Shown here: positions 5,679-30,421 of the stretch, one piece after another
How the letters are laid out: each line of letters starts with the position of its first letter
Position numbering within the stretch: the stretch's first letter is position 1
Translations under genes and position numbers: made by a program
The notes under the pieces: model-generated
Databases searched by the model: none
What the model saw: the letters and a program-made list of their open reading frames with translations, nothing else
Told to the model about the DNA's origin: nothing
Assembly (NCBI GenBank): GCA_024280415.1
Contig: JAJRQE010000046.1
Coordinates: 1 to 34,801, forward strand
Length of the DNA stretch: 34,801 nt
Direction of reading: 5' to 3'
From: Spirochaetota bacterium
Lineage (GTDB): Bacteria > Spirochaetota > Spirochaetia > B11-G9

Positions 5679-5725
5679 CCAGCAAATTAAAATGTGATAG
5701 AGTAACCCTGTAGCAGGAGATATTT

Positions 5726-8505: not shown

Positions 8506-8525
8506 ATTAGCTCCTCTATGTTTTA

Positions 8526-8796: not shown

Positions 8797-10386
8797 TTAT
8801 TTCTTTGGTTGTGTCAGAGTCAGCAATGCTTCGAGAGTTCCTCCTCCCACAGCTCTGGCCTTATCGGATATTGTAAAACAATTATCTACATTCCCCCGGG
8901 TATCCACATCCCCTATTTTAAATCCTTTTTCCGGAACTACCATTCCATCGTGAATAATCCCCCTGAGTACTCCATCCAGCTGGGATCTTATTTCACTTTT
9001 CCCTATTTTTGCCAGAAGATCTCCTTTTTTTACCAGATCTCCTATTTTTTTTAATACATCCACTTTTCCGGCTGTAGTCGACCTTACAACCCTTTTAGCC
9101 GATTCACCTCCGATTTCTCCCGGAATCCCTGTATTTGGTTCCGGTTTTCCCTTTAGAATAACTGTCCCCAGGTTATGTCCTCTGTTAGTTTCAACGACTG
9201 CATCCACATCCACTCCTGCTTCGAAACCCGGACCCAGTCCGATAACCACAGGTGCCATATTTCTGGTTGTTCCCAGATTTTTCTTTGCCAGTATGGCATC
9301 TATGACTGCAATGGGTTTAAGAATCTGAATATATTTACCGTCAGGATCTTCTATAACCGGAATTGCCCTTTCTGCAAGTATTGTTTCAACCTCTTTTTTA
9401 GTCGCAGCCTTTACTGCCGTTATTCCTGCCACTGTTACCGATCTGTCATACATTGCCTGAGAGTAGGAGACAGTGCTACGAATAACTGTCGGTTCAGCAA
9501 TCTCAAGGACAACAACCCTGAATCCTGAATTGTGGAGTCTTGCAATAGAGCCCGAGGCAATATCTCCCCCCCCTCGTACTATTACAAGGTTATCGAATTT
9601 TTGTTTTATCGATTTTCCCGAGGCTCCTGTCTGAACCATTTTAATTTCGGCAAGAATACTGAAAGCTATCTCTTCCGGGGTTTCTGCTTTTAAATCCAAC
9701 CCTACGGGAGCATATACAGAGGCAAGTTTTGCCTCATCAAAACCGTCTTCCTTCATATGATTCACCATTAATGCGACTTTTCGTCTGCTCCCCAGAAGGC
9801 CGATATAGGCTGCCCGGGAATTGACTACTGAACGTAATACGGCCTCATCCACACTTCCCGTGCATATTATAATATAAGTATTTTCATCAATACTGACTTT
9901 TTTAACTGCCGCTTCAATTTTATTATCATGGTAAAGCTGTCTTGCCATAGGGAATCGCTCTTCCGAGATAAATTCTTTTCTGTTTTCAACCAATGTAATA
10001 CTGTAATCCAGTTTTTCCGCCAGCCCTGCAATCTGAAGGGCAACATGTCCTCCTCCTATAATAAGCAGTTCCGGTCTTGGCACAATTACCTCAATAAATA
10101 CCTCCAGGTTTCCCCCGCAGGACATTGCTATACTTGTTTTACTGGTTCCGCTGTCCAGTTTGTACTCGACCATTCGAGACTGACCGGTTTTAAGGCAGGA
10201 AACAGCTTCTTTAATAATAAAAGATTCTGCAAGTCCCCCGCCGATGGTCCCTATTATACTGCTGTCACCAAGGATAATCATTTTTGCGTTACTTCTGGGG
10301 GTAGATCCCCTGGAGGAAACAATTGTTGCCACTGCAAAGGGTTTATTCTGTTCCCTCAAATCTGCTGCTGCCTGAAAAAATTCCAT
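8797..10386 (-). CDS. yqeB: XdhC-family / YqeB-family fusion for selenium-dependent molybdenum hydroxylase maturation
   Basis: A 529-residue two-domain accessory protein. The first ~255 residues are XdhC-like: an N-terminal block (FAVATIVSSRGSTPR, GTIGGGLAE, MSCGGNLEVFIE) and a Rossmann domain (LLIIGGGHVALQIAGLAEKL; IGLLGSRRK). The second part, from about residue 265 (LVIVRGGGDIASGSIARLH, VVIGLGPGFEAGVDVDAVVE, TNRGHNLGTVIL), is the YqeB/EF2563 family associated with selenium-dependent molybdenum hydroxylases. XdhC proteins protect and insert the molybdenum cofactor; YqeB's exact role is unknown. AGGAG precedes the start, which is 9 bp after the yqeC stop, so the two form an operon. YqeB and XdhC are separate genes in many genomes. 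Confidence 0.9.
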   Translation of the reverse strand: MEFFQAAADLREQNKPFAVATIVSSRGSTPRSNAKMIILGDSSIIGTIGGGLAESFIIKEAVSCLKTGQSRMVEYKLDSGTSKTSIAMSCGGNLEVFIEVIVPRPELLIIGGGHVALQIAGLAEKLDYSITLVENRKEFISEERFPMARQLYHDNKIEAAVKKVSIDENTYIIICTGSVDEAVLRSVVNSRAAYIGLLGSRRKVALMVNHMKEDGFDEAKLASVYAPVGLDLKAETPEEIAFSILAEIKMVQTGASGKSIKQKFDNLVIVRGGGDIASGSIARLHNSGFRVVVLEIAEPTVIRSTVSYSQAMYDRSVTVAGITAVKAATKKEVETILAERAIPVIEDPDGKYIQILKPIAVIDAILAKKNLGTTRNMAPVVIGLGPGFEAGVDVDAVVETNRGHNLGTVILKGKPEPNTGIPGEIGGESAKRVVRSTTAGKVDVLKKIGDLVKKGDLLAKIGKSEIRSQLDGVLRGIIHDGMVVPEKGFKIGDVDTRGNVDNCFTISDKARAVGGGTLEALLTLTQPKK

Positions 10387-10395
10387 TCGTAACTC

Positions 10396-11217
10396 CTATA
10401 GTTTTATAACCGCCATAACAGGGGGGGCGCTGAGATCGTTCCCCGGCGCTTCGTGCCTGTGGTACGACTCATAGTCGTTTTCAGTCATTGAAGTAATTAG
10501 AATCCTATCGATACCAATGGATTCTGATATGTACCCGGCAATCTCCTTTGCCGCCGAAATGCGAGATAACGTTTCGCTTTTATTAAATATTACAATTTTT
10601 CTGCTTTTAGGGGAAGTGTCTTTAAATAGTCCTCTATTTGAAATTATAAGTTTTGCAACTATAACAGGGGTAAGAATATCACCAATTGCTGTTTTTGTAA
10701 GAGTGGTAAATATTTCAGGCCGGTGAATATTTTTCTCATCTATTTCTGTGCCCACAGAGTCCATTCCAATAATACCTGCTGCAATGTCTGTATTTAAGGG
10801 TAAAACAGGTTCATATGGTGCCGGAGCCTTTATTGGTCTACCTCGCGCTCCGTCAGCCTCCACAAGGAGAATATCAAATAGTTCAGATTGGCGAATGTAT
10901 TCTATCTCTTCTTTTGAAAATCCTTTTATCTTTCTCTCCGTTTCAATAAGATTTCTGCCTGCAACTGTTATTGTTCCCCTGGCAGCACTATTCTGCATTA
11001 CCAGAGTCTCTGCTTTTCCTGTGAAAAAAATATCGCAGGGTCTGATTTTAACTTCAGGATGGAATATCATTGTAGTGGTAGTTACAAGAACTTTTTGTCC
11101 CAGAGTTCTAAGTTCAGTTGCCAGTCGATACATTGTACTGGATTTTCCGCCGCCGCCGACAAAGGCAATTACCTGTGGTTTTCTGACATCTATGCCGAAT
11201 GCATCAATAAGTTCCAT
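10396..11217 (-). CDS. yqeC: YqeC-type selenium-dependent hydroxylase accessory protein
   Basis: A P-loop protein of 273 residues from the YqeC family, found with SelD, YqeB and molybdenum hydroxylases. VIAFVGGGGKSSTMYRLA (about residues 16-33) is the nucleotide-binding loop, and VLVTTTTMIF, DILLVEADGARGRPIKAPA and IGMDSVG follow as in the family. Its biochemical step is not established. The C-terminus is odd: between LITSMTEN and the usual terminal PPVMAVIKL lie about 16 residues (DYESYHRHEAPGNDLS) encoded by a copy of the dispersed repeat family A. No clear ribosome binding site is seen before the ATG. A good promoter lies at 11265-11293 on this strand. Confidence 0.88.
   Translation of the reverse strand: MELIDAFGIDVRKPQVIAFVGGGGKSSTMYRLATELRTLGQKVLVTTTTMIFHPEVKIRPCDIFFTGKAETLVMQNSAARGTITVAGRNLIETERKIKGFSKEEIEYIRQSELFDILLVEADGARGRPIKAPAPYEPVLPLNTDIAAGIIGMDSVGTEIDEKNIHRPEIFTTLTKTAIGDILTPVIVAKLIISNRGLFKDTSPKSRKIVIFNKSETLSRISAAKEIAGYISESIGIDRILITSMTENDYESYHRHEAPGNDLSAPPVMAVIKL
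10429..10472. repeat. Dispersed repeat family A, copy 2, in frame inside yqeC
   Basis: Forty of 44 positions match the copy at 5318-5361, including the CGGCRCTTCGTGCCTG hairpin. Here the repeat is inside coding sequence and preserves the frame, adding residues near HRHEAPGNDLS just before the final beta-strand of YqeC. It starts right beside a run of seven G (10421-10427). Confidence 0.85.
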
Positions 11218-14731: not shown

Positions 14732-16234
14732 ATGAGTACTACTGTCTTTATAAATGCAATGGATCTGACTGAATATGCCTATAAGAAGCTGCCCTGTGGC
14801 ACTACAGCCTTTGATTCTGTTATCAAAAGTGCAGAAAGCCTTCCTGATCTGAAAAAAATTGTAATTATTGCCAGAAAAGATTTTATCAGGGAAGGGAACT
14901 TCAGTATAATTGAGCCCCAGGGGAGAGATATGCACAGCCTGATAAGAGTTTTTCAGGAAGAAATAGGGGATTCGGAAAATCTATTCTATTTGTATGGGGA
15001 TGCGCCTTTACTTAATTCTGCGGTTTTTGAGCGAATGTACCGGAACCATAATCAGTATTTTGCCTCCTATACATTTGCTGATGGTTTTCCCTATGGAATG
15101 GCTCCTGAGATCATTAAAGGTTCAGTCCTTGATCAGCTTCTTGGACTGGCAGAAAAAAACAGTATCCCAATATCACGGAAATCACTCTTTGAGCTGATAA
15201 AGATAGATATTAATTCATTTGATATAGAAACAGAAATTTCAAGAATTGATCAGAGAATGCTGAGGGTTTCATTAACTGCAGATACAAAGCGAAATTATAA
15301 TCAGCTCTGTAGAATAATGGATAATTTAGATTCTGACAGCATATCGGATGAAGATCACCTTATTGACCTTCTTGAAACAAGTCAGATACTTTTGAGAACA
15401 GAGCCTTCATTTATTAATGTTCAGATAACAGGAGGGTGTTATCAAACCTGCTCATACTGTCCCTATCCTGATATGGGTGGAGATATCATTAACAGGGATG
15501 ATGAGATGAGCATCGATCAATGGATAGAGATCCTCGAAAAGGTGGGAGAGTTCAGCGATGATGCGGTATTCAGTGTTTCTCTGTGGGGGGAACCTTCCAG
15601 ACACAGTAATTTTTTAGGTATAGTAAGTTCTCTTTTGGAAAGAGAGAAATTTAGGCTTATTATTGAAACATCAGGAATTGGCTGGGATCCTAAAATCCCT
15701 GAGGCAATTTCAAAAATTTCGCAGGGCAGAGTTGACTGGATATTATCAATTGACGCTGATAATGCAGAGTCCTACAGCCGTGTAAGGGGCGACGGATGGG
15801 ATGAAGTTGTGAGTACAGCCGAATATCTTCATGAACTCTTTCCGGAAAACTTATATCTCCAGCTGGTAAGGATGAAAGCCGAGGAGGAGCATCTGGAGAA
15901 CTTCTATCGGGGATGGAAAGAGAAAGGTTATAAAATGATAATTCAAAAGTATGACCATTTCTGCAAAGTTCTTCCGGACAGACGGGTTACAGACCTTTCT
16001 CCTGTAAGAAGATTCCCCTGCTGGCATCTTAAACGGGATCTGAATATTCTTATTGACGGAACAGTTCCTCTCTGTCGGGAGGATCTGAAAAAAAAGTATA
16101 AAATGGGAAATATATTTAAAGATAAAATTGATCTTATCTGGAAAAATGGTGAATCTGTATATATAAACCATCTGAATGGTGAATATTCTGATCTTTGCAG
16201 GGGATGTGATGAATACTATACCTACAACTTCTAG
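14732..16234 (+). CDS. Radical SAM/SPASM protein with nucleotidyltransferase-like N-terminus (spiro-SPASM type)
   Basis: 500 residues in three parts. Residues 1-225 look like a GT-A/nucleotidyltransferase fold (FINAMDL, IVIIARKDF, and NLFYLYGDAPLLNSAVF around 83-99, where GDAPLL resembles the metal-binding Asp region of IspD or CMP-sugar synthetases). Residues 230-400 are a radical SAM domain with C236-x3-C240-x2-C243 (GGCYQTCSYCPYP) to bind the 4Fe-4S cluster and SAM. The last 70 residues are a SPASM-like region with Cys 430, 448, 489 and 492 (CWHLKRDL, PLCRED, LCRGCDEY) for auxiliary clusters. I recall this architecture as a spirochaete-enriched family of unknown substrate. No clear ribosome binding site. 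It heads a seven-gene set. The chemistry is not known. Confidence 0.85.
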   Translation: MSTTVFINAMDLTEYAYKKLPCGTTAFDSVIKSAESLPDLKKIVIIARKDFIREGNFSIIEPQGRDMHSLIRVFQEEIGDSENLFYLYGDAPLLNSAVFERMYRNHNQYFASYTFADGFPYGMAPEIIKGSVLDQLLGLAEKNSIPISRKSLFELIKIDINSFDIETEISRIDQRMLRVSLTADTKRNYNQLCRIMDNLDSDSISDEDHLIDLLETSQILLRTEPSFINVQITGGCYQTCSYCPYPDMGGDIINRDDEMSIDQWIEILEKVGEFSDDAVFSVSLWGEPSRHSNFLGIVSSLLEREKFRLIIETSGIGWDPKIPEAISKISQGRVDWILSIDADNAESYSRVRGDGWDEVVSTAEYLHELFPENLYLQLVRMKAEEEHLENFYRGWKEKGYKMIIQKYDHFCKVLPDRRVTDLSPVRRFPCWHLKRDLNILIDGTVPLCREDLKKKYKMGNIFKDKIDLIWKNGESVYINHLNGEYSDLCRGCDEYYTYNF

Positions 16235-17171
16235 GAACCCCAGGATTCCCTATACTATGGTAGGGGGAAGGAAAAGTGATAAAGATCTCAGCCTTTCACC
16301 TGTTATAAGTATCCTTGTTCTTAACAGGGGGGGAAGACCGTACAAAGCTGAATATCTAAAACATCTGGAATCTCTGGGGGGGATAGAAATTATATCAATT
16401 CAGGGTCCGGGGGTGAGTTATGATGTTGAGTCCCTTTCTCTGAGATTTCCTCAGATACGGTTTTTGGTGTTAGGTGCAGATGCTTCTCCCGGGGAACAGA
16501 TAAACATTGGTATGATAGAGGCTTCCGGGAGAAATCTTATGGTATTCTGGGATGATATGCGGCCGGGATACCGTTTTACCGAAAGATTTTTACACAATAT
16601 TGATAAAACTTCTGTTCTATGTAGTGTTCCAATACTTCAGAGTACAAGATATGAGACTGTTCCTTCTCTCATGGCACCTGCTTTTCACGGCAGTCGTTTG
16701 AAAATGATATCTCTTATGCCCAGTGCCCATGGTGCGGAAACTCTCTATCCTTTTGATTATGCAGGAATATATAATAAGGAAAAATTTTTATTAAGTGGTG
16801 GCTTTGACTATAATATTGAAAATCAATATTGGCAGAAGATGGATTTTGGTTTCCGGGTACACATGTGGGGAGAGTCAATAACATTCAATACAGGTGTTAA
16901 AATAGAGTATCTTATAGAACAGTTCCCAGAAGATACGACCCCTGATCAATACTATAAATATTTTTACCTGAAAAATTTGATAGTCAGATTTTCCGGTGAT
17001 AATGCATCAATATCCTGGTCAAAATTTTTATCCTACTCTTTCAAGTCCGGTACATCCTTCCTGGCATCTCTGAAGGATTTTAAGGCTGCCAGAAACTGGG
17101 TAGATATAAATAAATTCAGATTTTCATGTGATGCGAGACAGGTTACAGATCTTTGGGAGGTTAAGGAATGA
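16209..17171 (+). CDS. Glycosyltransferase-like protein (GT2/GT-A type), unknown acceptor
   Basis: About 320 residues. After a short tail, SPVISILVLNRGGRPYKAEYLKHLESL opens a GT2-like Rossmann half, followed by IRFLVLGADASPGEQINIGMIEASG and LMVFWDDMRPG, where the acidic pair occupies the place of the DxD metal site. YAGIYNKEKFLLSGGFDYNI resembles the GT2 region where the enzyme closes over the acceptor. I use the ATG at 16209 (weak AGGGG upstream), which overlaps the preceding gene by 26 nt; starts at 16176 or 16257 are also possible. It overlaps the next gene by 4 nt (ATGA). The family call is moderate because sequence identity to classic GT2 enzymes looks low. Confidence 0.65.
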   Translation: MNTIPTTSRNPRIPYTMVGGRKSDKDLSLSPVISILVLNRGGRPYKAEYLKHLESLGGIEIISIQGPGVSYDVESLSLRFPQIRFLVLGADASPGEQINIGMIEASGRNLMVFWDDMRPGYRFTERFLHNIDKTSVLCSVPILQSTRYETVPSLMAPAFHGSRLKMISLMPSAHGAETLYPFDYAGIYNKEKFLLSGGFDYNIENQYWQKMDFGFRVHMWGESITFNTGVKIEYLIEQFPEDTTPDQYYKYFYLKNLIVRFSGDNASISWSKFLSYSFKSGTSFLASLKDFKAARNWVDINKFRFSCDARQVTDLWEVKE

Positions 17172-17866
17172 AAACAGCAGTTTTTCTACAGGTCAGGGTT
17201 GGTTCTACCAGGCTTCCCGGAAAAGCCCTGCTTCCTCTGGAAGGCCTTACTGTCATTGAGCATGCAATGAGAAACCTCATGGATGTTAATGCAGATGTAT
17301 TTGCAATTCTTACAGAACCGGAGAGCAAATCCCAGCTTGCAGGACTTGCAGAAAAATGGGGATATAAACTTTTTATAGGGGACAGAGAAGATGTTCTTAA
17401 GAGGTATGCAGATGCGGTTAAATATTTTTCTGCGGAAACGGTAGTCAGAGCTACTGGTGATAATCCTTTGGTTTCAGGATCTCTTGCAAATGATATCATA
17501 AGGTACCACAATCTAAAGAATGCCGATTTCAGTGCATTTACGGGAATGCCTCTTGGTACAGGAGTCGAAATATTAAGGGGTGAATCTATACTGCAGGCAA
17601 ATGAGCTTTCTACAGATCTTTACGAAAGGGAACATGTCTCCCCCTCACTCTATTTTAGGGAAAGTAAATTTTATATTAACAGAGTTCCGGTATCCGGTGA
17701 ATATTACTTTCCGGAAGGGAGAGTTACTCTGGATACCATAGAGGACTACAATTATCTTAAAAATATTTTCCGACAGTTAAATAATTGTAAACAAATTAAT
17801 ATTCAGACACTTGTTACCTGGTTAAGGATGAATATGCCTGTAAATAATTACGCTCTGGCTCAGTAA
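17168..17866 (+). CDS. SpsF-like cytidylyltransferase family protein
   Basis: 232 residues with the N-terminal nucleotide-binding signature of the CMP-sugar synthetase/SpsF family, FLQVRVGSTRLPGKALLPL, then GDREDVLKRY and VVRATGDNPLVSGSLAND, the metal-binding Asp region, and a late REHVSPSLYF and RVTLDTIEDY block. Members activate sugars or sugar acids as CMP derivatives or act beside N-acetylneuraminate/pseudaminate-like pathways in spore coat and flagellar glycan clusters. Translation is coupled to the upstream gene by ATGA, and only 3 nt separate it from the next gene, which has a PseG-like domain; that pairing supports a CMP-sugar route. Substrate unknown. Confidence 0.82.
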   Translation: MKTAVFLQVRVGSTRLPGKALLPLEGLTVIEHAMRNLMDVNADVFAILTEPESKSQLAGLAEKWGYKLFIGDREDVLKRYADAVKYFSAETVVRATGDNPLVSGSLANDIIRYHNLKNADFSAFTGMPLGTGVEILRGESILQANELSTDLYEREHVSPSLYFRESKFYINRVPVSGEYYFPEGRVTLDTIEDYNYLKNIFRQLNNCKQINIQTLVTWLRMNMPVNNYALAQ

Positions 17867-17869
17867 TAT

Positions 17870-19633
17870 ATGGCGGGAAAATCATTTCTCCTTGTCCCCT
17901 TAAGTAGAGCGGACAGCGGAACAGGGCATTTAAGGAGAATGATCAGCCTGTACCACCATCTGAAGGAAGGAGCTTCATGCTCGATCTATACAACAAAGGG
18001 GGAAAGTTCAGAAATTCAAAAATCTCTTATTTCGTATTCAGTCAGTTCAGATGATTTGATTGTTTCTGAAGATACGGGTTCCGACAGATGGGATTTTATT
18101 ATAATTGACTATAGGAAGACTCCCGGATCACTCTTTGATTATTTCAGAGGCAGGGGTAGTCTGATAGGAATTGATGAAGGGGGAGATTATCGAAGTGAAT
18201 TCCAGTTTCTTATAGATATTCTACCTTCCCTGCCAAATAGAATTCAGGCAAATATTTCTTCCCCGGGGTTGCTGAATCTTCCTCCGAAACATGAATATCT
18301 GAAGGTTGAAAAAGAGTATAAAAAGATTCTGATTACCTTTGGGGGTGAGGATCCTTTGGATCTTACCTCCAAAATCCTCATGTTTATACAGAAATATGGT
18401 TACTTCAGGAGTGCAGAAATTACTGTTGTTACCCAGAGTAGTTCCATAAAGGAATCCGGTGAAGATAGATTAAAAATTCTTATCAGTCCGGAAAATCTTA
18501 AAGATATGCTTGTTGATTACGATTTAATTATTACAAGTTTTGGGATTACAACTTTTGAGTCCCTCTCTTCCGGAGTCCCTTTCCTTCTATTAAATCCTGA
18601 AAAATATCATGAGAAATTATCAATTTTCTGTGGATTCCCTACATTGGGAGTGGTACTGCCTGAAAAGAAAAGAATGGATAAATTTCTTAAATCAGGAGTC
18701 TCCTACTTAGATCTGCAGCAAAAATATATTACCCGGACAGATCAGAATCTTGGAAATATTATTGGAAATCTAAAAAAAGGGAAAACCAATTGCCCTGTCT
18801 GTACCAATTCAGGTTTCAAAAACAAAATAATCTGCAGGACTGGAGCAGGAACCTATTACAAATGCAGAAGATGCAGGATTATATATCTTCTCCCCTTAAT
18901 ATCTTCCAGTAATAGTTATAGAAAAGAATATTTTTTTGAAGAGTATAAAAAGCAGTATGGGCGGACATATCTGGAAGATTTTAGAAAAATAAAGACTTTT
19001 GCAGCTGAGCGTCTGAATATTATAAACACTCTTGGGAAAAAATCTCAAACCGGATCCCCCTCTTTACTGGATGTAGGTTGTGCATATGGTCCTTTTCTTG
19101 CAGAAGCAGAATATTTTGGATACACTCCCGAAGGGGTAGAAATTATACCCGAAGCAGCAGAATATGTTCGATCCAATCTTGGTTTTCCTGTTTTCAGCAC
19201 CTGCTTTGAGGAGCTGGAAACTGAAAAGCAATTTGATCTGCTGACAATGTGGTATGTCATTGAACATTTTGATAAGCTTGATTCTGTTTTAATCCAGGTA
19301 AATAAATTACTAAAGTCTGGTGCTGTTTTTGCGTTTTCAACACCTGAAAGTACAGGAATTTCAGGACTTAAGGATCTGAAATCTTTTTTGAGAGGGAGTC
19401 CTTCGGATCATATTACGGTCTGGAGCACCAGGGCTGCAAAAAAGATTCTTCCTGGCTTTGGTTTTAGAATTAGAAAAATTCGAATAACAGGTCACCATCC
19501 TGAAAGATTTCCTTTTTTTAGGGTGCTGGAGCTTATATTTGGAGAAAAGGGTATACTTATTTTGAGTAAATTATTTAAATTGGGTGATACTTTTGAAGTA
19601 TATGCTGAAAAAATAAGGGAATATAATGGCTAG
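17870..19633 (+). CDS. PseG/SpsG-like domain fused to a zinc-ribbon methyltransferase
   Basis: 587 residues. Part one (1-300) resembles PseG/SpsG, the GT-B-fold UDP-sugar hydrolase of pseudaminic acid synthesis: SRADSGTGHLRRMISL, IIIDYRKTPGSLFDYF, IGIDEGGDYRSEF, ILITFGGEDPLDLTSKIL and IITSFGITTFESLSSGVP. Part two starts at a Cys-rich element (CPVCTNSG then CRRCRIIYL, about 304-340) and continues as a class I SAM methyltransferase (LLDVGCAYGPFLAEAEYFG with EGVEI following, MWYVIEHFDKL, LLKSGAVFAFSTPE). Such zinc-finger methyltransferases are common in sugar modification. The fusion implies the same substrate is hydrolysed or transferred and then methylated. No Shine-Dalgarno sequence is evident; it overlaps the next gene by 8 nt. 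Confidence 0.8.
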   Translation: MAGKSFLLVPLSRADSGTGHLRRMISLYHHLKEGASCSIYTTKGESSEIQKSLISYSVSSDDLIVSEDTGSDRWDFIIIDYRKTPGSLFDYFRGRGSLIGIDEGGDYRSEFQFLIDILPSLPNRIQANISSPGLLNLPPKHEYLKVEKEYKKILITFGGEDPLDLTSKILMFIQKYGYFRSAEITVVTQSSSIKESGEDRLKILISPENLKDMLVDYDLIITSFGITTFESLSSGVPFLLLNPEKYHEKLSIFCGFPTLGVVLPEKKRMDKFLKSGVSYLDLQQKYITRTDQNLGNIIGNLKKGKTNCPVCTNSGFKNKIICRTGAGTYYKCRRCRIIYLLPLISSSNSYRKEYFFEEYKKQYGRTYLEDFRKIKTFAAERLNIINTLGKKSQTGSPSLLDVGCAYGPFLAEAEYFGYTPEGVEIIPEAAEYVRSNLGFPVFSTCFEELETEKQFDLLTMWYVIEHFDKLDSVLIQVNKLLKSGAVFAFSTPESTGISGLKDLKSFLRGSPSDHITVWSTRAAKKILPGFGFRIRKIRITGHHPERFPFFRVLELIFGEKGILILSKLFKLGDTFEVYAEKIREYNG

Positions 19634-21281
19634 GACAACAGTTCTTATATTAGGCGGAAGTGTAATGCAGATTCCTGCTATAAAATATGCAAAAGAGATG
19701 GAATGGGATGTTATTGTAGCCGATGGTAATCAGGATGTCCCAGGAAAGGATTATGCGGATTACTTTGAACCCATTGACTTGAAAAACATCGAAGATATGA
19801 TAAAAATGGCTCGTGGTTACAGGGCAGTCGGCTCTCTTGATGCTGTTTTTACTGCAGGAACTGATTTTTCTGAAACAGTTGCAAGAGTTGCTGCTGCAGC
19901 AGGGTTGCCTGGAATCACTATTGATGCATCTATAAATGCAAGTAATAAGGGAAGAATGAGAGAAGTCTTTCTGAAAAACGGAATTTCTTCTCCTCTGTTT
20001 TTAACTGTTGACAATATTTCAGAATTTGAATGCAGTATTGTTAAGGAAAGAGGTTTACATTTTCCTCTTGTAGTAAAACCTGTTGATAATATGGGTTCCC
20101 GGGGGATACAGAAATCAGAGAACTGTGATGAACTTATTACCTCAATAAAGACAGCTGTCTCTTTTTCCCGATCAGGTTCTGTTATTTTAGAGGAGTATCT
20201 GGATGGGAAAGAATTCAGTATAGATGCTCTTGTGTATGATGACAAAATAACTATATGCGGATTTGCTGACCGGCATATTTTTTATCCTCCCTATTTTATT
20301 GAAATGGGACATACTATTCCGTCAGATATTGATGAAAATACAGCGACGGAGATCATTCAAGTATTTAAAGCAGGGGTCAGGGCTTTAGGGATAACAGAGG
20401 GTGCTGCAAAAGGAGATATCCGGTTAAGCCGTGGGAAAATATATATTGGAGAGATTGCAGCACGATTATCCGGAGGGTATATGTCAGGATGGACCTTTCC
20501 CTATTCCTCTGGTGTTCCTCTTACAAAAGCCGCTTTAAAAATTGCAGCAGGCCAGTCTCCTGGCGATCTGAGTCCTGTTTTCTCCCGGTTTACGGCAGAA
20601 AGAGCGTTCCTGTCTATTCCTGGAGTAGTTTCGCTCATTGAAGGTGTTGGTGATGCAAAGACTCTTCCCGGTCTATACGATATTTTCCCGAGGGTTGTTC
20701 CCGGGGATCATGTTAGATTTCCTGAAAATAATGTGGAAAAAGCCGGAAACTGTATTGCAGTAAGTGAGGATCGTTCTGCTGCTGTAAAATCTGCAGAGGA
20801 AGCCTGTAGGACGATTTTTGTCCGGCTGGAAGCCTGTAATATTAAAACAGAGGAATTCCTATTCGGATCTTACCAGAAATGGGTACAAAATGCGTTCACT
20901 CTGGAAGATAGTATTAATCTTGATTTTCTCGAAAAAATCCCTGATTATGAGTTAAATTCTTCTAAAAGTATAACCATACTGCAGCTGCCGGATTTAAACC
21001 GGGAATATTCTACAGAGTGGCATGGAAAGAGATTGAATAGAGCTTTCCAGGATGTTCTGGAGATGGATTATGGTGATTATACTGTGAATCAAACCCGTAT
21101 TTCTACCTTAAAGGCAAATAGTGGAAATAGGCGTAATGGAGTTGTTTTGGGTAAGATCTTCTACCATGCTTTTCTTCGGGGAGGGATACAGGGAGGAGTC
21201 TGGGTAATAGATTCGGCTTTGAAGATCTTAAGTGAGAAAAAAAGTTTGTCGGAGTTATTTTCAAAATGGAAAAAATATTAA
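19626..21281 (+). CDS. ATP-grasp ligase with an extra C-terminal domain
   Basis: 551 residues. An N-terminal preATP-grasp Rossmann half (TVLILGGSVMQIPAIKYAKE), then an ATP-grasp domain of the carbamoyl-phosphate synthase/PurK kind: FPLVVKPVDNMGSRGIQKSE near 153, VILEEYLDGKEFSIDALVYD near 195, and EIAARLSGGYMSGW near 278 for metal and ATP binding. From about residue 415 a 135-residue tail with no family I recognise includes ITILQLPDLNREYSTEWHGK. ATP-grasp enzymes join a carboxylate to an amine, thiol or another nucleophile through an acyl phosphate, so this one could attach an amino acid or acyl group to the sugar or protein made by the cluster. It overlaps genes on both sides (8 and 16 nt). 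Confidence 0.85.
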   Translation: MARTTVLILGGSVMQIPAIKYAKEMEWDVIVADGNQDVPGKDYADYFEPIDLKNIEDMIKMARGYRAVGSLDAVFTAGTDFSETVARVAAAAGLPGITIDASINASNKGRMREVFLKNGISSPLFLTVDNISEFECSIVKERGLHFPLVVKPVDNMGSRGIQKSENCDELITSIKTAVSFSRSGSVILEEYLDGKEFSIDALVYDDKITICGFADRHIFYPPYFIEMGHTIPSDIDENTATEIIQVFKAGVRALGITEGAAKGDIRLSRGKIYIGEIAARLSGGYMSGWTFPYSSGVPLTKAALKIAAGQSPGDLSPVFSRFTAERAFLSIPGVVSLIEGVGDAKTLPGLYDIFPRVVPGDHVRFPENNVEKAGNCIAVSEDRSAAVKSAEEACRTIFVRLEACNIKTEEFLFGSYQKWVQNAFTLEDSINLDFLEKIPDYELNSSKSITILQLPDLNREYSTEWHGKRLNRAFQDVLEMDYGDYTVNQTRISTLKANSGNRRNGVVLGKIFYHAFLRGGIQGGVWVIDSALKILSEKKSLSELFSKWKKY

Positions 21282-22312
21282 CTGCAGCTGCTTTAATTCT
21301 TCTAATCTCTGTCTATAGTTTTACAGAAGAGGTATCCACGGAGATGATCTCTATTAATGAAATTATTGAAACTACCGGTGCGGAATTCAGATGGGATCCT
21401 TTCAGATTTTTGGGTGAACTTTCCTTGTCTGATCAGACTGTTATTTTTCAACCAGGAATACCTTTCCTTCTGATCAATTATTCAGAAAAAACTGAAACTG
21501 TCAGTGTTGTAAGGGGCAGGGAGGGTGGAATATATTTCTCCAGGGAAGGGGCTGATATCATTATTGATCTTTTCAGTTCTGTTTCAGTCCCTGTAAGTAT
21601 TGTAAAAGTAAAAGCCATAATAATAGATCCGGGGCATGGAGGAAAGGATCCGGGAGCTGTTGGTCGTTTTCATTTGGATGACGGGCAGTTTGAACTGAAG
21701 GAAAAAGATGTTGTTTTATCTGTAGCCATGAATGTAGCGGAAAGACTGAAAAGCACCTACAGTGATAAGCAGGTCATTCTTACAAGATCCACAGATGAAT
21801 TTATTAGTCTTGAACAGCGGACTGTAATTGCAAACAGCATAGAACTTGGAGAGAATGAGGCAATAATATTTGTTTCGGTTCATGCAAATGCATCTCTAAA
21901 TCCCAGAGCCAATGGGTTTGAGGTCTGGTATCTGCCTCCTGAGTACCGTAGAGATTTACTTGATGACAGTACTATCGAAAGTGAATTGAGTGATGTAGTT
22001 CCCATTCTAAACACAATGCTGGAAGAGGAAATAACTGTAGAGAGTATTCTGCTTGCCCAGAGTATACAGAAAGGTCTTACTGTCTCCATTGGAGACAAAA
22101 TAGAGGACAGAGGTCTTAAAGAGGAGTCATGGTTTGTAGTCAGGAAAGCAAAGATGCCGGCTGTTCTGGTAGAGCTTGGTTTTATTACAAACCAGAAAGA
22201 AGCTCTTACTTTAAGGGATGAATCATACTTGAAGAAAGTCGGCGAAGGGATCTATAATGGCATAAGTGGTTTTATTAACCATTTTGAGATGCAATACTTT
22301 CCCGGGGAATAA
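21266..22312 (+). CDS. N-acetylmuramoyl-L-alanine amidase (AmiC/Amidase_3)
   Basis: Periplasmic zinc amidase that cuts the bond between MurNAc and the peptide stem. The 348-residue product begins with a signal peptide (MEKILTAAALILLISVYSF), has a 95-residue N-terminal part without clear family, then the Amidase_3 domain: IIIDPGHGGKDPGAVG (zinc His), a Glu-rich FELKEKDVVL (zinc Glu), FVSVHANASLN (zinc His), and AVLVELGFITN (catalytic Glu). All four metal or catalytic residues are present. A loop after the first motif (GRFHLDDGQFE) is somewhat longer than usual. It overlaps the ATP-grasp gene by 16 nt and precedes a GerMN gene by 3 nt. Confidence 0.92.
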   Translation: MEKILTAAALILLISVYSFTEEVSTEMISINEIIETTGAEFRWDPFRFLGELSLSDQTVIFQPGIPFLLINYSEKTETVSVVRGREGGIYFSREGADIIIDLFSSVSVPVSIVKVKAIIIDPGHGGKDPGAVGRFHLDDGQFELKEKDVVLSVAMNVAERLKSTYSDKQVILTRSTDEFISLEQRTVIANSIELGENEAIIFVSVHANASLNPRANGFEVWYLPPEYRRDLLDDSTIESELSDVVPILNTMLEEEITVESILLAQSIQKGLTVSIGDKIEDRGLKEESWFVVRKAKMPAVLVELGFITNQKEALTLRDESYLKKVGEGIYNGISGFINHFEMQYFPGE

Positions 22313-22315
22313 TAA

Positions 22316-22768
22316 ATGAATCTAAAAAAGAATAAAATAACTCTGCTGTTCATATCTGTTTTTGCTTTTCTGCTGCTATTCTCTACAGCATTTTATATTA
22401 TTAACGGGAGCAGAACCATCAGACGAGTTCTTTTCTTCCCTGGTAGAACCAATTATTCCGGGGAGGTGCGACGACTTCCACTGCAGGCATCAGTTGAAGA
22501 TGATGTTGAATTATTTGTAAAGGAATTAATTTTAGGCCCCTTTCAGATTGATCATTCGAGGGTTGTTCCTGAAAATACCAATCTTAAGAATCTGATGATA
22601 AGGGAGAAATCATTGCTTTATATTGATTTTTCAGCCGATTTTATTGTTCACGAAGATGAATTTACTATTCTTCCGGAAGAAATGAAGATTTTGATTAAAA
22701 AGAATATTGTATATAATTTCCCTTTTTTAAAGCAAATTTCAATCTCAGTTGATGGTCAGTCCCTTTAG
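22316..22768 (+). CDS. Membrane-anchored GerMN-domain protein
   Basis: 150 residues with one N-terminal membrane segment (about 9-29, LLFISVFAFLLLFSTAFYII) and a single GerMN-type domain: RVLFFPGRTNYSGEVRRLPL, then VELFVKELILGP, LYIDFSADFI and a late helix before FLKQISISVDGQSL. GerMN domains occur in spore-germination proteins and in non-sporulating bacteria next to amidases, where they likely bind cell wall. Its position 3 nt after the amidase gene supports a shared cell-wall role. Function beyond that is unknown. The flaA promoter follows after 54 bp. Confidence 0.78.
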   Translation: MNLKKNKITLLFISVFAFLLLFSTAFYIINGSRTIRRVLFFPGRTNYSGEVRRLPLQASVEDDVELFVKELILGPFQIDHSRVVPENTNLKNLMIREKSLLYIDFSADFIVHEDEFTILPEEMKILIKKNIVYNFPFLKQISISVDGQSL

Positions 22769-22850: not shown

Positions 22851-22889
22851 TTTAGATACTTATTGAAAATGGTTTTAAAGGAGCAATGG

Positions 22890-23849
22890 ATGAAACGGTT
22901 CGGAATTCTTCTTGGTATCATGCTTATTGCAGTTAGTTTTTCGGTTTCTGCTGTAGAGTCAGTTCTTATCGATTTCTCTACACTGACAGCAGATATGGAA
23001 GATGGAAACAATAGTGCTACAACTGTAGATTTTTCTGGGAAAGCCGGTGTAGGCTACACAGACGAAGAAAAACAGCTTATGAAGACCTCTTTGGCAATTA
23101 AGAATTGGGATGTAGTTCTTAATTCTTCTGCAAGGACTGTCATGAATCAGAGGCTGTCATATACTATGGAAGCCCCTGTCAGGGCAGATGCATTAAATTA
23201 TGGCGGTGACACAGTAATGGGTATAAGGGTACATTTCCCTGAAGATCCATTCAATGCCTATGCAGTAGTGCAGCCCCCCTTCATGATACCGGGGTATATG
23301 CAGAAAGATGAGAATGACAAAACTGGAAGCAAGTTCGACGGCTTTGGTATAGTCAAAAATGTCGGTGCAATTAAGAGTATTGCAGTATCTGTCTATGGGA
23401 GTAACTTTACAAATGGTCTTGGTTTAATTCTAAGAGATCAGAACGGTGTTGAGAGAAATATATTTCTTGATTACCTTGATTTTAAGGGATGGAGAGATCT
23501 GGGTTGGGTAAACCCTTCATATATAGACGATATCAGAAACAGGGAATTGAAAAAGTATCCCCTCTATCCACGAACAACACCTATGCAGCAGCTTATTGGT
23601 TTTATTCTCTATAAGGATGCAGCACAGGATGGTGGTGATGTAATTACCTATATCAAGGATGTAACAATCAAATATGATTATGCTGTACTTCCTGGTGTTG
23701 ATGACATTGACAACGAAGCTCTATGGGGTATTCTAAGTCAAAGAGAGGAGTCAAGAAGAACTGCTGAATGGAGTAAACTTGGTGAAATCCAGGTATTGAG
23801 AGCTCTTGAAGATAAGCTTATCGATAAAACAGATAATACACAGGAATAA
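22890..23849 (+). CDS. flaA: Flagellar filament outer-layer (sheath) protein FlaA
   Basis: Periplasmic sheath protein of the spirochaete endoflagellum. I place the start at 22890, where AAAGGAG (22877-22883) is 6 nt upstream; this gives 319 residues with a good signal peptide MKRFGILLGIMLIAVSFSVSA. An upstream TTG at 22863 would add nine residues that carry the ribosome binding site. Family features are VLIDFSTLTADM, RVHFPEDPFNAYAVVQPPFM, GVIKSI-like stretches (GAIKSIAVSVYGSNF), LRDQNGVERNIFLDYLDFKGWRDLGWVNPSYI and DAAQDGGDVITYIKDVTI. Its own strong promoter and terminator make it monocistronic. FlaA marks the host as a spirochaete. Confidence 0.95.
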   Translation: MKRFGILLGIMLIAVSFSVSAVESVLIDFSTLTADMEDGNNSATTVDFSGKAGVGYTDEEKQLMKTSLAIKNWDVVLNSSARTVMNQRLSYTMEAPVRADALNYGGDTVMGIRVHFPEDPFNAYAVVQPPFMIPGYMQKDENDKTGSKFDGFGIVKNVGAIKSIAVSVYGSNFTNGLGLILRDQNGVERNIFLDYLDFKGWRDLGWVNPSYIDDIRNRELKKYPLYPRTTPMQQLIGFILYKDAAQDGGDVITYIKDVTIKYDYAVLPGVDDIDNEALWGILSQREESRRTAEWSKLGEIQVLRALEDKLIDKTDNTQE

Positions 23850-24042: not shown

Positions 24043-24933
24043 CTACTTCAACAGATCAAGATCAAGACTGACCCCTGTTGTCAGACGGAATAAGAAAACA
24101 CCCGGACCGGAATTAGCAAGAGTTAAAGGGGTTGCATCACTGTAACCAAAAGAATAAATATTGCTTTCCATGTTTGTAATTAATTCTATTCCGTCCGAAA
24201 CTTTAAAAGTGAAATTAGTTCCCAGTATGAGTGAATTTAATCTGTTCTCTGTTGTGGAGGTGGCTCCGGAAACAAGATAGGTTCTTGAAACTGTCTGGTA
24301 GGCAAATGATACAAGTGTCCTTAATGGAACATTTTTTTGAAACATATCAATCTTAAAAGCATACTCTCTGAAGCTGTCATCAACTTCAAGGGTGCTGGTC
24401 TGTTTTGTAATAAAAGACTTGGAAGTAATACTGAATGAACATATTGCATTCGGAATATAGTATCCTATAGCTATCTCATTAAATTCCTGAATGTAATCCC
24501 CAGCTTTAATAAATCTGGAACCTATGGAACTGTCTGCTTTAAGGGATGCATAAATAAATCCTGGAAACTCAACCTGAACAGATGTTGAAATTCCGGATTT
24601 CATTGGTGTCTGGGCAGTATTGAAAAGTCCGAAAAATGGTCCAAGCCCAAGTTTAAAAAAACTATGCTGATATTCGAAAAGTGTAAAAGTAGTATATCTC
24701 AGTATAGGATCATAGAATACTCCGGCTTTTAAGATAATATCATCACTGATATTATCCTTTCCGAAGATACTGATTCCCCAGGGATAATAGGTTCCGGAGA
24801 ATGTAGAGACTGTAGAGGTGTCAGTCTTATCAAACGAAATATCACTTATATGAAAGAGTGTTGAGATTTCCATACCGGAAACCGGGATCAGGAAAATAGT
24901 TATAAAAAGTAAAACAAAAATAAATTTTTTCAT
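24043..24933 (-). CDS. Probable outer-membrane beta-barrel protein, unknown function
   Basis: 296 residues with a signal peptide (MKKFIFVLLFITIFLIPVSG) followed by alternating short hydrophobic strands and polar turns, many Tyr, Phe, Ser and Thr, and a C-terminal stretch FRLTTGVSLDLDLLK, all typical of an outer-membrane barrel or a periplasmic beta protein. No named domain recognised. Its ATG touches the stop of the upstream gene (24934), so the two are one operon, antisense to the flaA and cheA genes between which they lie. The stretch FELGLGPFFGLFNTAQTP-like region (residues 92-110) is unremarkable. The barrel call is inferred from composition. Confidence 0.6.
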   Translation of the reverse strand: MKKFIFVLLFITIFLIPVSGMEISTLFHISDISFDKTDTSTVSTFSGTYYPWGISIFGKDNISDDIILKAGVFYDPILRYTTFTLFEYQHSFFKLGLGPFFGLFNTAQTPMKSGISTSVQVEFPGFIYASLKADSSIGSRFIKAGDYIQEFNEIAIGYYIPNAICSFSITSKSFITKQTSTLEVDDSFREYAFKIDMFQKNVPLRTLVSFAYQTVSRTYLVSGATSTTENRLNSLILGTNFTFKVSDGIELITNMESNIYSFGYSDATPLTLANSGPGVFLFRLTTGVSLDLDLLK

Positions 24934-26091
24934 CTAGAACTCCGCCTTAACACTGATGACTCCCTCAAACATTTCATTAAGGGAATAGGGTAACAGTTGT
25001 GTATTTAACATAAGATTCCAGATAACACCGGAAGTAATAACACTAAGATATGGGGAAATAACAACACCGAATTGGTTGCTGCCTCCCGAACTTGAGTAGG
25101 TTGCTCCCCCTTCCAGTCCTCCATAGAAGGTACTTTGTAAGGGATCCCCGATTAGAAAATTTATATGGACATCAGATGATCCTGCATCTGCAGTAGGGTA
25201 CTGTAAATAAAATCCGGGATGTAGAAAAAGTGTAAGAATAATTGTCATATTATTTAGTTTAATTCTCGGTTCAAACAGGAAAAATAATCTATTTATGTCA
25301 AATGTCACCGCAGGATCCCATTGGGGTATCCCTATCTGGGCAAAAAATTCACCTGTACTCCCGGGACTGTAGTAGAAAAGAAAACCAGCCCTGTACAAAC
25401 CCATGGAGGAAGCGGGAAAACTTCCCCCCAGAAAACCTTCAATTTTAACTTTATCAAAATTCATGAGTACACGAAGATCACTGGAAAAGTAACCATCACC
25501 TAAATAGCCATCCTGGTATATATAGGCAGATGAGTTTATCCTGTCGCTGCCGAAATTGGTGGAAAGTTTAAATCCTGTTCCGTTTATTCTGTGAATTCCA
25601 TCAAATTCACTATTTGGGAAATATAAATACCCTCTGTAACGGGTGTTTATTGGAACTGAACCAAATAGAGTTGGGAAATCATCTCCGGAACCAAGTACAT
25701 CTGTTTTTCCTATGAAATAGGTGAGTTCGGTTGTAGAAGAAAATAGATCACGTATTGCAATTTCTGCTGACTGAAATTTAAGGTAGGTCTGATTGGAGAG
25801 AAATGTGGCAAGCTCCTGGGAAGTCCCGCTATAATCGGAAATATCTGCACTGGAATATCCAAGATCCATACTGTCGAAGCCAAGAATTAGGTTGCCTCCA
25901 AGCTTATATCCGCCTCCTACACGGAGATCAACCTTTCCCCTTGTTGTTAAAACAGGAATCCCGTTTGATAAAATTGCCCGGGAAATCAGTTCCATATTAG
26001 TTACATCTGTTTCAGCAGAAAATAGATTAAATGACAGAACAATAAGGAAAACAATAATCAGTAAAAAGACTCTTTTCGTACACAAGTTCAT
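24934..26091 (-). CDS. Probable outer-membrane beta-barrel protein, unknown function
   Basis: 385 residues starting with a signal peptide (MNLCTKRVFLLIIVFLIVLSFNLFSA). The mature part shows repeated amphipathic strands such as GGGYKLGGNLILGFDSMDLG, KVEIEG-type hairpins (FDKVKIEGFLGGSF) and GGLEGGATYSSSGGSNQFGV, and ends MFEGVISVKAEF, with a terminal Phe as in many outer-membrane barrels. No known family recognised. GGGAG is 7 nt before the ATG, and a TATAAT-like -10 lies at 26114-26119 on this strand. It is divergent from cheA and forms an operon with the gene after it. Confidence 0.6.
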   Translation of the reverse strand: MNLCTKRVFLLIIVFLIVLSFNLFSAETDVTNMELISRAILSNGIPVLTTRGKVDLRVGGGYKLGGNLILGFDSMDLGYSSADISDYSGTSQELATFLSNQTYLKFQSAEIAIRDLFSSTTELTYFIGKTDVLGSGDDFPTLFGSVPINTRYRGYLYFPNSEFDGIHRINGTGFKLSTNFGSDRINSSAYIYQDGYLGDGYFSSDLRVLMNFDKVKIEGFLGGSFPASSMGLYRAGFLFYYSPGSTGEFFAQIGIPQWDPAVTFDINRLFFLFEPRIKLNNMTIILTLFLHPGFYLQYPTADAGSSDVHINFLIGDPLQSTFYGGLEGGATYSSSGGSNQFGVVISPYLSVITSGVIWNLMLNTQLLPYSLNEMFEGVISVKAEF

Positions 26092-26146: not shown

Positions 26147-26179
26147 TTAATATAAGTATCGAAAATATTGGGAATTAGA

Positions 26180-26207
26180 TTGACGCTTTTGATTTATTAT
26201 TTAAAAT
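26180..26207 (+). promoter_or_regulatory. Possible promoter of the chemotaxis operon
   Basis: TTGACG, 16-bp spacer, TAAAAT, 45 nt before the cheA ATG at 26252. Just downstream, TTGAC-TTTAGCTT-GTCAA (26213-26230) is a small inverted repeat that could bind a regulator. Prediction by eye. Confidence 0.45.
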
Positions 26208-26251
26208 CGTACTTGACTTTAGCTTGTCAATATAAGATGATTATTCCTGAT

Positions 26252-28603
26252 ATGAGTGATTATTTAGATCCTAATAACGAAGAGTTACTAAAAGATTTTT
26301 ATGTAGAAGCAGAGATGCAGGTGGAAATTCTGGAACAGAATATACTTGTTCTGGAATCTAATCCCGGTAATATGGATGCTGTTGATGAGATATTCAGAGC
26401 TGCCCATACCCTTAAGGGTGCTTCTGCAACAGTACAGATGAATGAGCTGGCAGGTTTTACTCACATTGTGGAGGATGTCCTTGATGAAATCAGGGAAGGA
26501 TCCATAAAGGTTTTTCCAGTCACTGTGGACATTCTTCTGGAGGCCATTGATCTGATAAAAGAGATGCTGAGTTGCAGATCAGAAGGGACTGTCTACGATG
26601 AAGATATTTCCGGTCTGACAGGACAACTCAAGGGACTCCTTGACGGGAGTTCTGCTTCTGAAACGTCCTCTGGGGACACCATGAATGACACAGCAGAAAA
26701 TAATACCGATTTAACACTTTCAGAGTATGAACTCCTTGAACTTCTCGAAGCAGCAAATGAGGGCGAAAAGGTTTATGCGATACGAGTAAATTTTAACGAA
26801 GATCACCCTATGAATTCCATTGGCGGAATCCAGGTATTTGCAGCTTCGAAAAGTGCCGGAATAGTTCTTAGAACAATGCCTGATTTTGAAGAGATTTATG
26901 AAGATGTTTTTCATCCTGAAATTGTATATTATGTTTCTACTCCAGTTCCCGAAGAGGAGCTGTCTGCAAAATTAAATATTCCCGGGGTAGTTACATCCCT
27001 TTCACTGGATGAGCTCTCTTCTTCTTCAGAAGGAATAACAGGGGCGTCAAAAACTGTAGAAACCATGAAGGCAACACCCGGTAACGGTAAAGCTGACCCG
27101 CAAATTGACGAAAAGAAAAATGAAGCAGCATCCTTCGGTGGATCTACCGAATCTGATGATGGAAAGTCTGAGAAGAAAGTAAAAAAGGAAAAAGAGTTAA
27201 AGAAAAGAAAAAACCTGGGTTCTGTTCTTCGTGTTGACAGCCGGAGAATTGATAATCTTCTTAACCTTGTAAGTGAGACTGTTATTACAAAAGCAACTTT
27301 CACTCAGATCGGGAATAATTTTTCCGAGGTTGAGGCCAGTCTGAATGATCAGGAAAGACTCTACAGAGACGGGCTGAAAAGGCTTATTAATTCATTCCAG
27401 AGCTATGTGGAACGAGCAGGAGAAGGACTCACTGCAAACGAGATAAAATCTGAGATGAATGACCAGTTTTCTGATCTTTTTGCAGCCTTTGAGGAGTCCA
27501 AATCCAATTTCAAGAATACCATAGTAAAATTCAGATCAACTTCGCAGAACCTTGCAAGAACAACCAGTGAGCTTCAGGAAGCAGTTATGCAGATCCGGAT
27601 GGTTCCTATTAGTCAGATTTTTTCCCGTTTCCCACGGCTTGTCAGGGATGCTTCAAAATCCCTTAGCAAAAATATAAACCTGAAGATTATTGGTGAAGAT
27701 ACGGAACTGGATAAATCTGTAATCGAAGATCTTCTCGATCCACTTATTCACTGTGTCCGTAATTCTGTCGATCATGGCATAGAGATTCCTGAGGAACGTA
27801 TTAGATCAGGTAAACCTCCTGAGGGAGAGGTAATACTAAAAGCCCGGAATGAGGGCAGCCTGATTATTATCGATATTGAAGATGATGGAAAAGGAATTGA
27901 TGTGGAAGCTGTTCGTACTAAGGCTGTAGAACGGGGAGTAATCCATCCAAGTAAGGTTCTTTCCAATGTAGAGGCATTTAATTTAATTTTTGAACCTGGG
28001 TTTTCCACAGCAAAAAAAGTATCTGATATTTCCGGAAGGGGAGTTGGTCTTGATGTGGTTAAGCGAAAAATTGAAAAACTGAACGGTAATGTGAACGTAT
28101 GGTCTGAGTTGGGTGTAGGGAGTAAAATTACTATAAAAATACCTCTTACTCTTGCAATTATCCAGGCTCTTCTTGTTCGGATAGGTAGCGAGGTCTATGC
28201 CATACCAATTACTTCTGTCATTGACAGTCATAGAATCAAACCGGCAGAAATAAAGCTTATTGATGGTTACGAAGTTATTGATGTACGGGAGGATGTTATT
28301 TCTCTGATACGACTTGACAGGCTGTTTAATATTCCCACAGAGTCATCAAGTGAATATAATTTTGTTGTAATTGTAGGAAGCGGTGATAAAAAAATGGGGC
28401 TTATGGTTGATTCTCTGATCGGTGAAGAGGATGTAGTAATTAAGCCCCTGAAGGACAGATATACAAGTTCTCCCGGAGTTGCCGGAGCAACAATTTTGGG
28501 AGATGGTATTGTTGCTTTAATTATTGATGTAAGTCAACTTCTTGATCTTGGTTTAAAGCAGGAGATAGAAAACCGAAGAAGACGTTCTGCTTCGATAATG
28601 TAA
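26252..28603 (+). CDS. cheA: Chemotaxis histidine kinase CheA with enlarged dimerisation domain
   Basis: Cytoplasmic kinase that phosphorylates CheY under receptor control. The start is taken as the ATG at 26252 (MSDYLDPNNEELLKDF), giving 783 residues; earlier TTG or ATG starts are possible and no good ribosome binding site is visible. In order: HPt domain with phospho-acceptor His52 (AAHTLKGAS), a low-complexity linker ending in a Lys-rich run, dimerisation domain opening LLNLVSETVITKATF, HATPase (CVRNSVDHGIEIPEERI, DIEDDGKGID, SGRGVGLDVVKRKIE), and a CheW-like regulatory domain. About 91 residues separate VITKATF from QEAVMQIRM, versus roughly 30 in E. coli as I recall it, so the P3 helices carry an insertion of about 60 residues. 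That trait is described for spirochaete CheA. Confidence 0.95.
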   Translation: MSDYLDPNNEELLKDFYVEAEMQVEILEQNILVLESNPGNMDAVDEIFRAAHTLKGASATVQMNELAGFTHIVEDVLDEIREGSIKVFPVTVDILLEAIDLIKEMLSCRSEGTVYDEDISGLTGQLKGLLDGSSASETSSGDTMNDTAENNTDLTLSEYELLELLEAANEGEKVYAIRVNFNEDHPMNSIGGIQVFAASKSAGIVLRTMPDFEEIYEDVFHPEIVYYVSTPVPEEELSAKLNIPGVVTSLSLDELSSSSEGITGASKTVETMKATPGNGKADPQIDEKKNEAASFGGSTESDDGKSEKKVKKEKELKKRKNLGSVLRVDSRRIDNLLNLVSETVITKATFTQIGNNFSEVEASLNDQERLYRDGLKRLINSFQSYVERAGEGLTANEIKSEMNDQFSDLFAAFEESKSNFKNTIVKFRSTSQNLARTTSELQEAVMQIRMVPISQIFSRFPRLVRDASKSLSKNINLKIIGEDTELDKSVIEDLLDPLIHCVRNSVDHGIEIPEERIRSGKPPEGEVILKARNEGSLIIIDIEDDGKGIDVEAVRTKAVERGVIHPSKVLSNVEAFNLIFEPGFSTAKKVSDISGRGVGLDVVKRKIEKLNGNVNVWSELGVGSKITIKIPLTLAIIQALLVRIGSEVYAIPITSVIDSHRIKPAEIKLIDGYEVIDVREDVISLIRLDRLFNIPTESSSEYNFVVIVGSGDKKMGLMVDSLIGEEDVVIKPLKDRYTSSPGVAGATILGDGIVALIIDVSQLLDLGLKQEIENRRRRSASIM

Positions 28604-28639
28604 ATAAGCGAAAGCCCGAAAGCGTATACGGAGAGAATG

Positions 28640-29926: not shown

Positions 29927-29944
29927 TAATTTAAGGAGTTCTGT

Positions 29945-30409: not shown

Positions 30410-30421
30410 GAGGAAGTTGCT

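Follow-up and report, generated by a model that had tools for sequence, protein, structure and literature searches.

A cluster of seven genes occupies positions 14732 to 22768 of the plus strand in a 34,801-nucleotide stretch of DNA (referred to here as the window) from a bacterium of the phylum Spirochaetota (GenBank assembly GCA_024280415.1, contig JAJRQE010000046.1). Its first gene encodes spiro-SPASM, a protein with radical S-adenosylmethionine (SAM) and SPASM domains, and the next gene downstream of the cluster is flaA. The open reading frames (ORFs) of all seven genes are found, and their coordinates bear out the packing described in a first-pass annotation of the window: overlaps of 26, 4, 8, and 16 nucleotides (nt) and two gaps of 3 nt. 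If the second gene begins at 16176, the mechanical ORF start, the first overlap is 59 nt rather than 26.

Most of the annotation's domain assignments are reproduced by a domain scan. Spiro-SPASM (14732..16234) matches Radical_SAM and SPASM, with an N-terminal match to NTP_transf_3 that stays below threshold. The second gene (16209..17171, from its second ATG) had been called GT2-like; the scan gives it no Pfam match of its own, and weak GT2-family matches appear in 3 of 27 aligned homologues. Its description as a GT-A-fold glycosyltransferase-like protein comes instead from a predicted structure (pLDDT 89), in which the GT-A fold is nearest to polypeptide GalNAc-transferases (TMq ~0.6, 10-15% identity). 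The third gene (17168..17866) encodes an SpsF-type cytidylyltransferase with a CTP_transf_3 match and an intact QxRxxSxRxxxK loop. The fourth (17870..19633) is a fusion of a PseG-like nucleotide-sugar hydrolase (partial PseG match, motif GxGHxxR) with a zinc-ribbon methyltransferase (Methyltransf_23). The fifth (19626..21281) encodes an ATP-grasp ligase with an ATP-grasp_4 match, an LAL_C2 C-terminal domain, and a tail ending in GGxQGxxxxxD. The last two encode an N-acetylmuramoyl-L-alanine amidase (21266..22312, Amidase_3) and a GerMN domain protein (22316..22768, Germane). They are followed, also on the plus strand, by the gene for FlaA, the periplasmic flagellar filament outer-layer protein (22863..23849, FlaA domain).

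The lead protein had been described as a nucleotidyltransferase-like fusion. It is a fusion, and it belongs to a known family, TIGR04321 (NCBIfam), which it matches at 532.7 bits (cut-off 250) and over model positions 3-510 of 510. The name of this model gives no function. Three domains can be distinguished: a degenerate SpsF/cytidylyltransferase domain (residues 1-185), a radical-SAM fold (~227-410), and a SPASM/twitch domain (411-500). Homology of residues 1-185 to SpsF is found by profile comparison (probability 98.5%, E 2.5e-15), and the SpsF nucleotide loop is missing from the domain in 97 of 97 spiro-SPASM proteins. Judged by these features, the N-terminal domain is a dead copy of SpsF, or pseudo-cytidylyltransferase. 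Structure prediction of this part, which the annotation had proposed as a check, gives the same picture: in the AlphaFold model of the whole protein (pLDDT 92, pTM 0.90), the N-terminus matches cytidylyltransferase 6oew (TMt 0.70) and the C-terminus matches radical-SAM/SPASM enzymes.

The CX3CX2C motif is intact in the window's protein (C236, C240, C243). Of 97 genomes compared, 41 encode the intact motif and 56 have lost it, the T. denticola-like and T. pallidum-like ones belonging to the latter. None of the three SAM-cluster cysteines remains in 44 of the 56 motif-less proteins, and neither the motif nor a relaxed three-cysteine variant of it occurs elsewhere in the radical-SAM region of any of the 56. 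Mean pairwise identity is equal in the intact and motif-less groups, so that loss of the motif is not accompanied by signs of general decay. A 97-row tree, for which the motif columns were left out of the alignment, requires at least 13 changes of motif state. These changes are probably losses, because regain of the motif is unlikely.

In the SPASM region, three cysteines (C430, C448, and C489) are present in 97 of 97 proteins and a fourth (C492) in 95. Their X17 and X2 spacing suggests one metal cluster; the seven-cysteine set of a two-cluster SPASM domain is absent, these four being the only conserved cysteines in the region. Because CX3CX2C is lost in more than half of the proteins while three SPASM cysteines are invariant, radical chemistry does not appear to be the conserved role. 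SAM cleavage is presumably dispensable for the conserved function, unless motif-less forms hold their cluster by other ligands.

By profile comparison, a single relative of solved structure falls below E 1e-6: the amino-cyclitol dehydrogenase BtrN (PDB 4m7t, E 6e-18; TMt 0.70-0.74), which has one auxiliary cluster. Like spiro-SPASM, BtrN consists of a radical-SAM core and a twitch domain for a single auxiliary cluster. Unlike it, BtrN is without a cytidylyltransferase domain and needs the SAM cluster to work, which is gone from the majority of spiro-SPASM proteins. One may tentatively picture spiro-SPASM, at somewhat less than even odds, as a dead SpsF copy joined to a BtrN-like fold in which just the auxiliary metal site survives. 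In flagellin glycan synthesis it would assist the live SpsF, either as its obligate partner or as a scaffold that binds the sugar nucleotide. Its role across the phylum would then not be radical chemistry, and the SAM cluster would have been lost many times independently while the protein was kept. No paper naming spiro-SPASM was found in a literature search, and neither the loss of CX3CX2C nor the SpsF ancestry of the N-terminal domain was found described in the searchable literature.

Evidence that the genes of the cluster belong together can be obtained from their order in other genomes. Regions of 12-20 kb around spiro-SPASM were read in 52 long loci of the window's class and in 24 loci of other classes; counts of SpsF exclude the SpsF-like N-terminal domain of spiro-SPASM itself. 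The order radical SAM, glycosyltransferase, SpsF, PseG/methyltransferase, ATP-grasp, amidase, GerMN, flaA is found in 44 of the 52 same-class loci, a recurrence that, on gene order, exceeds chance. The annotation had proposed a conserved spirochaete locus, to be given up if the genes were not conserved together, and within the class they are. A core of radical SAM, SpsF, and PseG is retained in 16 of the 24 loci from other classes. SpsF and PseG form one ORF in 35 loci overall, including 31 of the 52, and Treponema-like genomes have SpsF, PseG, and methyltransferase in one protein of ~850-880 amino acids (aa). A split cluster is seen in one genome (G278, f15; locus L253), where spiro-SPASM and a GT2 gene lie at one locus and PseG-methyltransferase, ATP-grasp, and amidase at another, with SpsF just upstream.

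In both the T. denticola-like and the T. pallidum-like genomes, the amidase, GerMN, and flaA genes make up a unit that does not adjoin the sugar genes, and for this reason they are not counted in the sugar chemistry. As judged from gene order, the amidase and GerMN travel with flaA and not with the sugar genes. Because of this separation, the idea that the cluster as a whole serves the cell wall was rejected, and the earlier suggestion that the pathway ends in cell-wall remodelling is not supported.

To find what spiro-SPASM occurs with, 296 Spirochaetota genomes were compared for spiro-SPASM, flagellin, NeuB, and Maf, a spiro-SPASM match being counted as strong at E<1e-30. A strong match is present in 240 genomes, and all 240 have flagellin and Maf. 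In 30 Borreliaceae-like genomes flagellin is present and spiro-SPASM, NeuB, and Maf are all absent; FlaA is present in 3 of the 3 tested. Among 15 flagellin-less genomes none has spiro-SPASM, and Maf is absent in 14, with one weak match in the other. A strong match is likewise lacking in the remaining 11 genomes, all of them drafts less than 90% complete. In the searches made, spiro-SPASM is restricted to spirochaetes. Four Maf matches are found in the window's own genome, and the reduced T. pallidum-like genome keeps spiro-SPASM along with four. Most spiro-SPASM genomes have three to five Maf-family matches, approximately the number of flagellin genes; these may be flagellin-specific transferases.

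Since spiro-SPASM tracks Maf and not FlaA or flagellin alone, its distribution points to Maf-dependent glycosylation of flagellin with a nonulosonate (NulO, an unusual nine-carbon sugar) rather than to FlaA or a surface polymer. FlaA was considered as the partner of spiro-SPASM and rejected on account of the Borreliaceae-like genomes, which have FlaA (in the three tested) without it. The co-occurrence with flaA/flaB that the annotation had proposed to examine holds for flagellin in every spiro-SPASM genome and breaks down in the Borreliaceae-like ones, and the broader notion of surface decoration does not fit the pattern.

The remaining parts of a NulO pathway can be sought within and outside the cluster. 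In all 8 same-class spiro-SPASM genomes tested, among them that of the window and those resembling T. denticola and T. pallidum, the cluster SpsF is the sole CTP_transf_3 protein above the cut-off. It is a candidate for the CMP-nulosonate enzyme, if those genomes make CMP-nulosonate. The QxRxxSxRxxxK loop is found in 86 of 86 SpsF sequences, and the GxGHxxR motif in 65 of 66 PseG sequences; the PseG domain itself gives a partial match to TIGR03590 (2.9e-11), below the equivalog cut-off. NeuB is present in the window's genome (E 3e-59) and in 21 of 21 spiro-SPASM genomes examined, with NeuB/PseI-type synthase genes unlinked to the cluster. A 502-aa dehydratase gene adjoins a 395-aa aminotransferase-like gene at another locus of the window's genome (L272), and in the T. 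pallidum-like genome a dehydratase adjoins a PseC-like aminotransferase (PseC 6e-95); both pairs score below equivalog cut-offs. Four PseB/Cap5D-like dehydratase loci (L272, L274, L275, and L278) have, in our reading of the sequence, a NusG/RfaH-like gene alongside, which suggests dedicated antitermination of this sugar locus.

The ATP-grasp protein has the domains of the L-amino-acid-ligase type, as judged by ATP-grasp_4 (59.2 bits) and LAL_C2 (55.7 bits), both above cut-off, and a match to 3vot (E 1e-23). A close full-length relative is found in 16 of 16 same-class spiro-SPASM genomes tested, even if encoded elsewhere. At five loci from Brachyspira-like and other non-Spirochaetia genomes (L254-L258), the best ATP-grasp relative reads, from its sequence, as a fusion with an FMN-dependent dehydrogenase/IMPDH-like domain at the C-terminus, in proteins of 723-782 aa with a cysteine-rich linker in 4 of 5.

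A possible product of these genes can be found in T. denticola, whose flagellins bear a 450.2-Da glycan that is reported to be essential both for assembling the filament and for motility (PMC9481697, citing Kurniyati 2017). All the sugar genes of the cluster are found in T. denticola-like genomes, and the mass fits one methyl and one amide-linked acyl group, the kinds of group that enzymes of the methyltransferase and ATP-grasp ligase types would be expected to add. A residue of mono-N-acetyl NulO with an O-methyl-trihydroxyhexanoyl amide, the composition that this glycan reportedly has, gives a calculated mass of 450.185 Da, in agreement with 450.2 Da. These genomes differ from the window's in having spiro-SPASM without the radical-SAM cysteines and ATP-grasp at another locus. 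The flaA locus of one T. denticola-like genome (four genes upstream, then a divergent gene) fits the operon in PMC9481697. In L. biflexa, of a genus not recognised among the genomes sampled, cryo-EM density at Ser/Thr of FlaB1 has been interpreted as glycans (PMC13144727).

The SpsF/PseG/NeuB/Maf combination is a known type of pathway. The legionaminic acid pathway of the B. subtilis sps genes (PMC7439481) likewise uses an SpsF-type cytidylyltransferase, an SpsG/PseG-type hydrolase, an SpsE/NeuB synthase, and an aminotransferase for CMP-nulosonate. In contrast to it, spirochaetes fuse SpsF, PseG, and methyltransferase and add spiro-SPASM, the GT-A protein, and ATP-grasp, and the likely target is flagellin instead of the spore crust. 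The Maf-dependent flagellin glycosylation of Campylobacter, Aeromonas, and Clostridium shares NulO synthase, CMP activation, Maf, and a phyletic tie to flagellin, whereas the spirochaete genes adjoin flaA and the filament is periplasmic. To our knowledge, none of these Maf systems has a radical-SAM/SPASM or ATP-grasp member. The annotation's statement that no single known pathway combines these parts is thus too broad for the SpsF, PseG, NeuB, and Maf steps; for the spiro-SPASM, GT-A, methyltransferase, and ATP-grasp additions, no assignment was found in the accessible literature.

Taken together, the first five genes are interpreted, with a probability of about 0.7, as the activation and decoration module of a Maf-dependent NulO (pseudaminic- or legionaminic-like) flagellin glycan. 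A dehydratase and a PseC-like aminotransferase encoded elsewhere would make a diamino-sugar nucleotide, from which the PseG domain would release the sugar, and the unlinked NeuB/PseI-type synthase would convert it to NulO. SpsF would activate this as CMP-NulO. The fused methyltransferase would O-methylate an acyl group, and ATP-grasp would link the acyl to the NulO amine as an amide, as in the T. denticola FlaB glycan. Maf proteins would transfer the NulO to FlaB, possibly with the GT-A protein as co-transferase. Since spiro-SPASM adjoins SpsF and carries a dead copy of it, the simplest role for it would be as a partner of SpsF or a binder of sugar nucleotide; a BtrN-like radical oxidation would come on top of this where CX3CX2C is retained, as in the lineage of the window, and nowhere else. 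The amidase-GerMN-flaA genes would be a neighbouring flagellar module. The CMP-activated sugar acid, the methyl group, the amide made by ATP-grasp, and the flagellar link of the annotation thus find support.

Several points weigh against this interpretation. It is built from sequence and predicted structure, from which all functions are inferred. The absences of spiro-SPASM represent few independent losses (Borreliaceae; f9/f12), so that p-values for co-occurrence overstate the evidence, and in 8 of the 24 other-class loci (Brachyspira-like f24, f52) spiro-SPASM has no adjoining SpsF/PseG. The best matches to ATP-grasp outside the class have a different architecture, with an FMN-dehydrogenase-like domain, and the idea of ATP-grasp orthologues in all spirochaete classes was dropped on this account. 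The agreement in mass depends on the acyl structure of the T. denticola glycan, which in Kurniyati 2017 is reportedly a 2-methoxy-4,5,6-trihydroxyhexanoyl amide on a mono-N-acetylated pseudaminic-type acid. Finally, SpsF domain scores are closer to KdsB models than to PseF, and NeuB matches fall under equivalog cut-offs, which makes any naming of the exact sugar tentative.

An unlikely alternative is that the cluster makes a nonulosonate polysaccharide or lipid glycan of the cell surface, and that its adjacency to flaA is historical. Some spirochaetes do have LPS-type NulO clusters (NeuB, a NeuC-like gene, and other sugar genes) as separate loci, and sugar transfer in polysaccharide synthesis is a conceivable role for the GT-A protein. 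A surface glycan does not account well for the presence of Maf in every spiro-SPASM genome, the absence of spiro-SPASM from flagellin-less genomes, its retention with four Maf matches in the reduced T. pallidum-like genome, or the neighbouring flaA and cheA.

The role of spiro-SPASM may also be read differently. It could be a BtrN-like radical-SAM dehydrogenase of a CMP- or UDP-sugar in all species, with unusual cluster ligands in the motif-less forms. BtrN is indeed its sole solved relative at E<1e-6, and most motif-less proteins retain the G-E/D of the SAM-binding loop (G in 46 of 56, E or D in 56 of 56). The lack of any three-cysteine variant in the radical-SAM region of those 56 proteins and the repeated state changes on the tree make this improbable. 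Modification of a peptide or protein, as in RiPP-like or flagellin maturases, is more improbable still. The annotation had leaned on the usual activity of SPASM enzymes, and fold matches do include CteB, SuiB, anSME, and SkfB. However, the interior of the packed cluster (the 253-nt gap upstream not being included) has no room for a precursor gene, the N-terminal domain is a cytidylyltransferase and not a peptide-binding RRE, and the four SPASM-region cysteines, the closeness to BtrN, and the loss of the motif in 56 of 97 proteins all speak for something else.

The surroundings of the cluster can be described briefly. Beyond flaA come two minus-strand genes and then, at 26168-30856, a run of chemotaxis genes with CheA (26168-28603), a CheW-CheR fusion (28637-29926), and two small genes, which places the cluster in a motility neighbourhood. 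The minus-strand genes (24043-26091) encode adjacent proteins of 296 and 385 aa with no Pfam match at 1e-5; the pair is kept at the same place in a related genome (L039). A purine-type cluster at 4015-11217 contains a permease, adenine deaminase, and XdhC-like and YqeC-like proteins.

If the flagellin interpretation is correct, these would be candidate genes for making the flagellin glycan in spirochaetes, among them the species that cause syphilis and periodontitis. Repeated loss of the radical-SAM site in a protein that is itself strongly retained would make spiro-SPASM a clear example of an enzyme family that persists because of some other function, be it non-catalytic or of a different catalytic kind. 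Intact and motif-less forms of spiro-SPASM coexist in related species, making this role directly testable.

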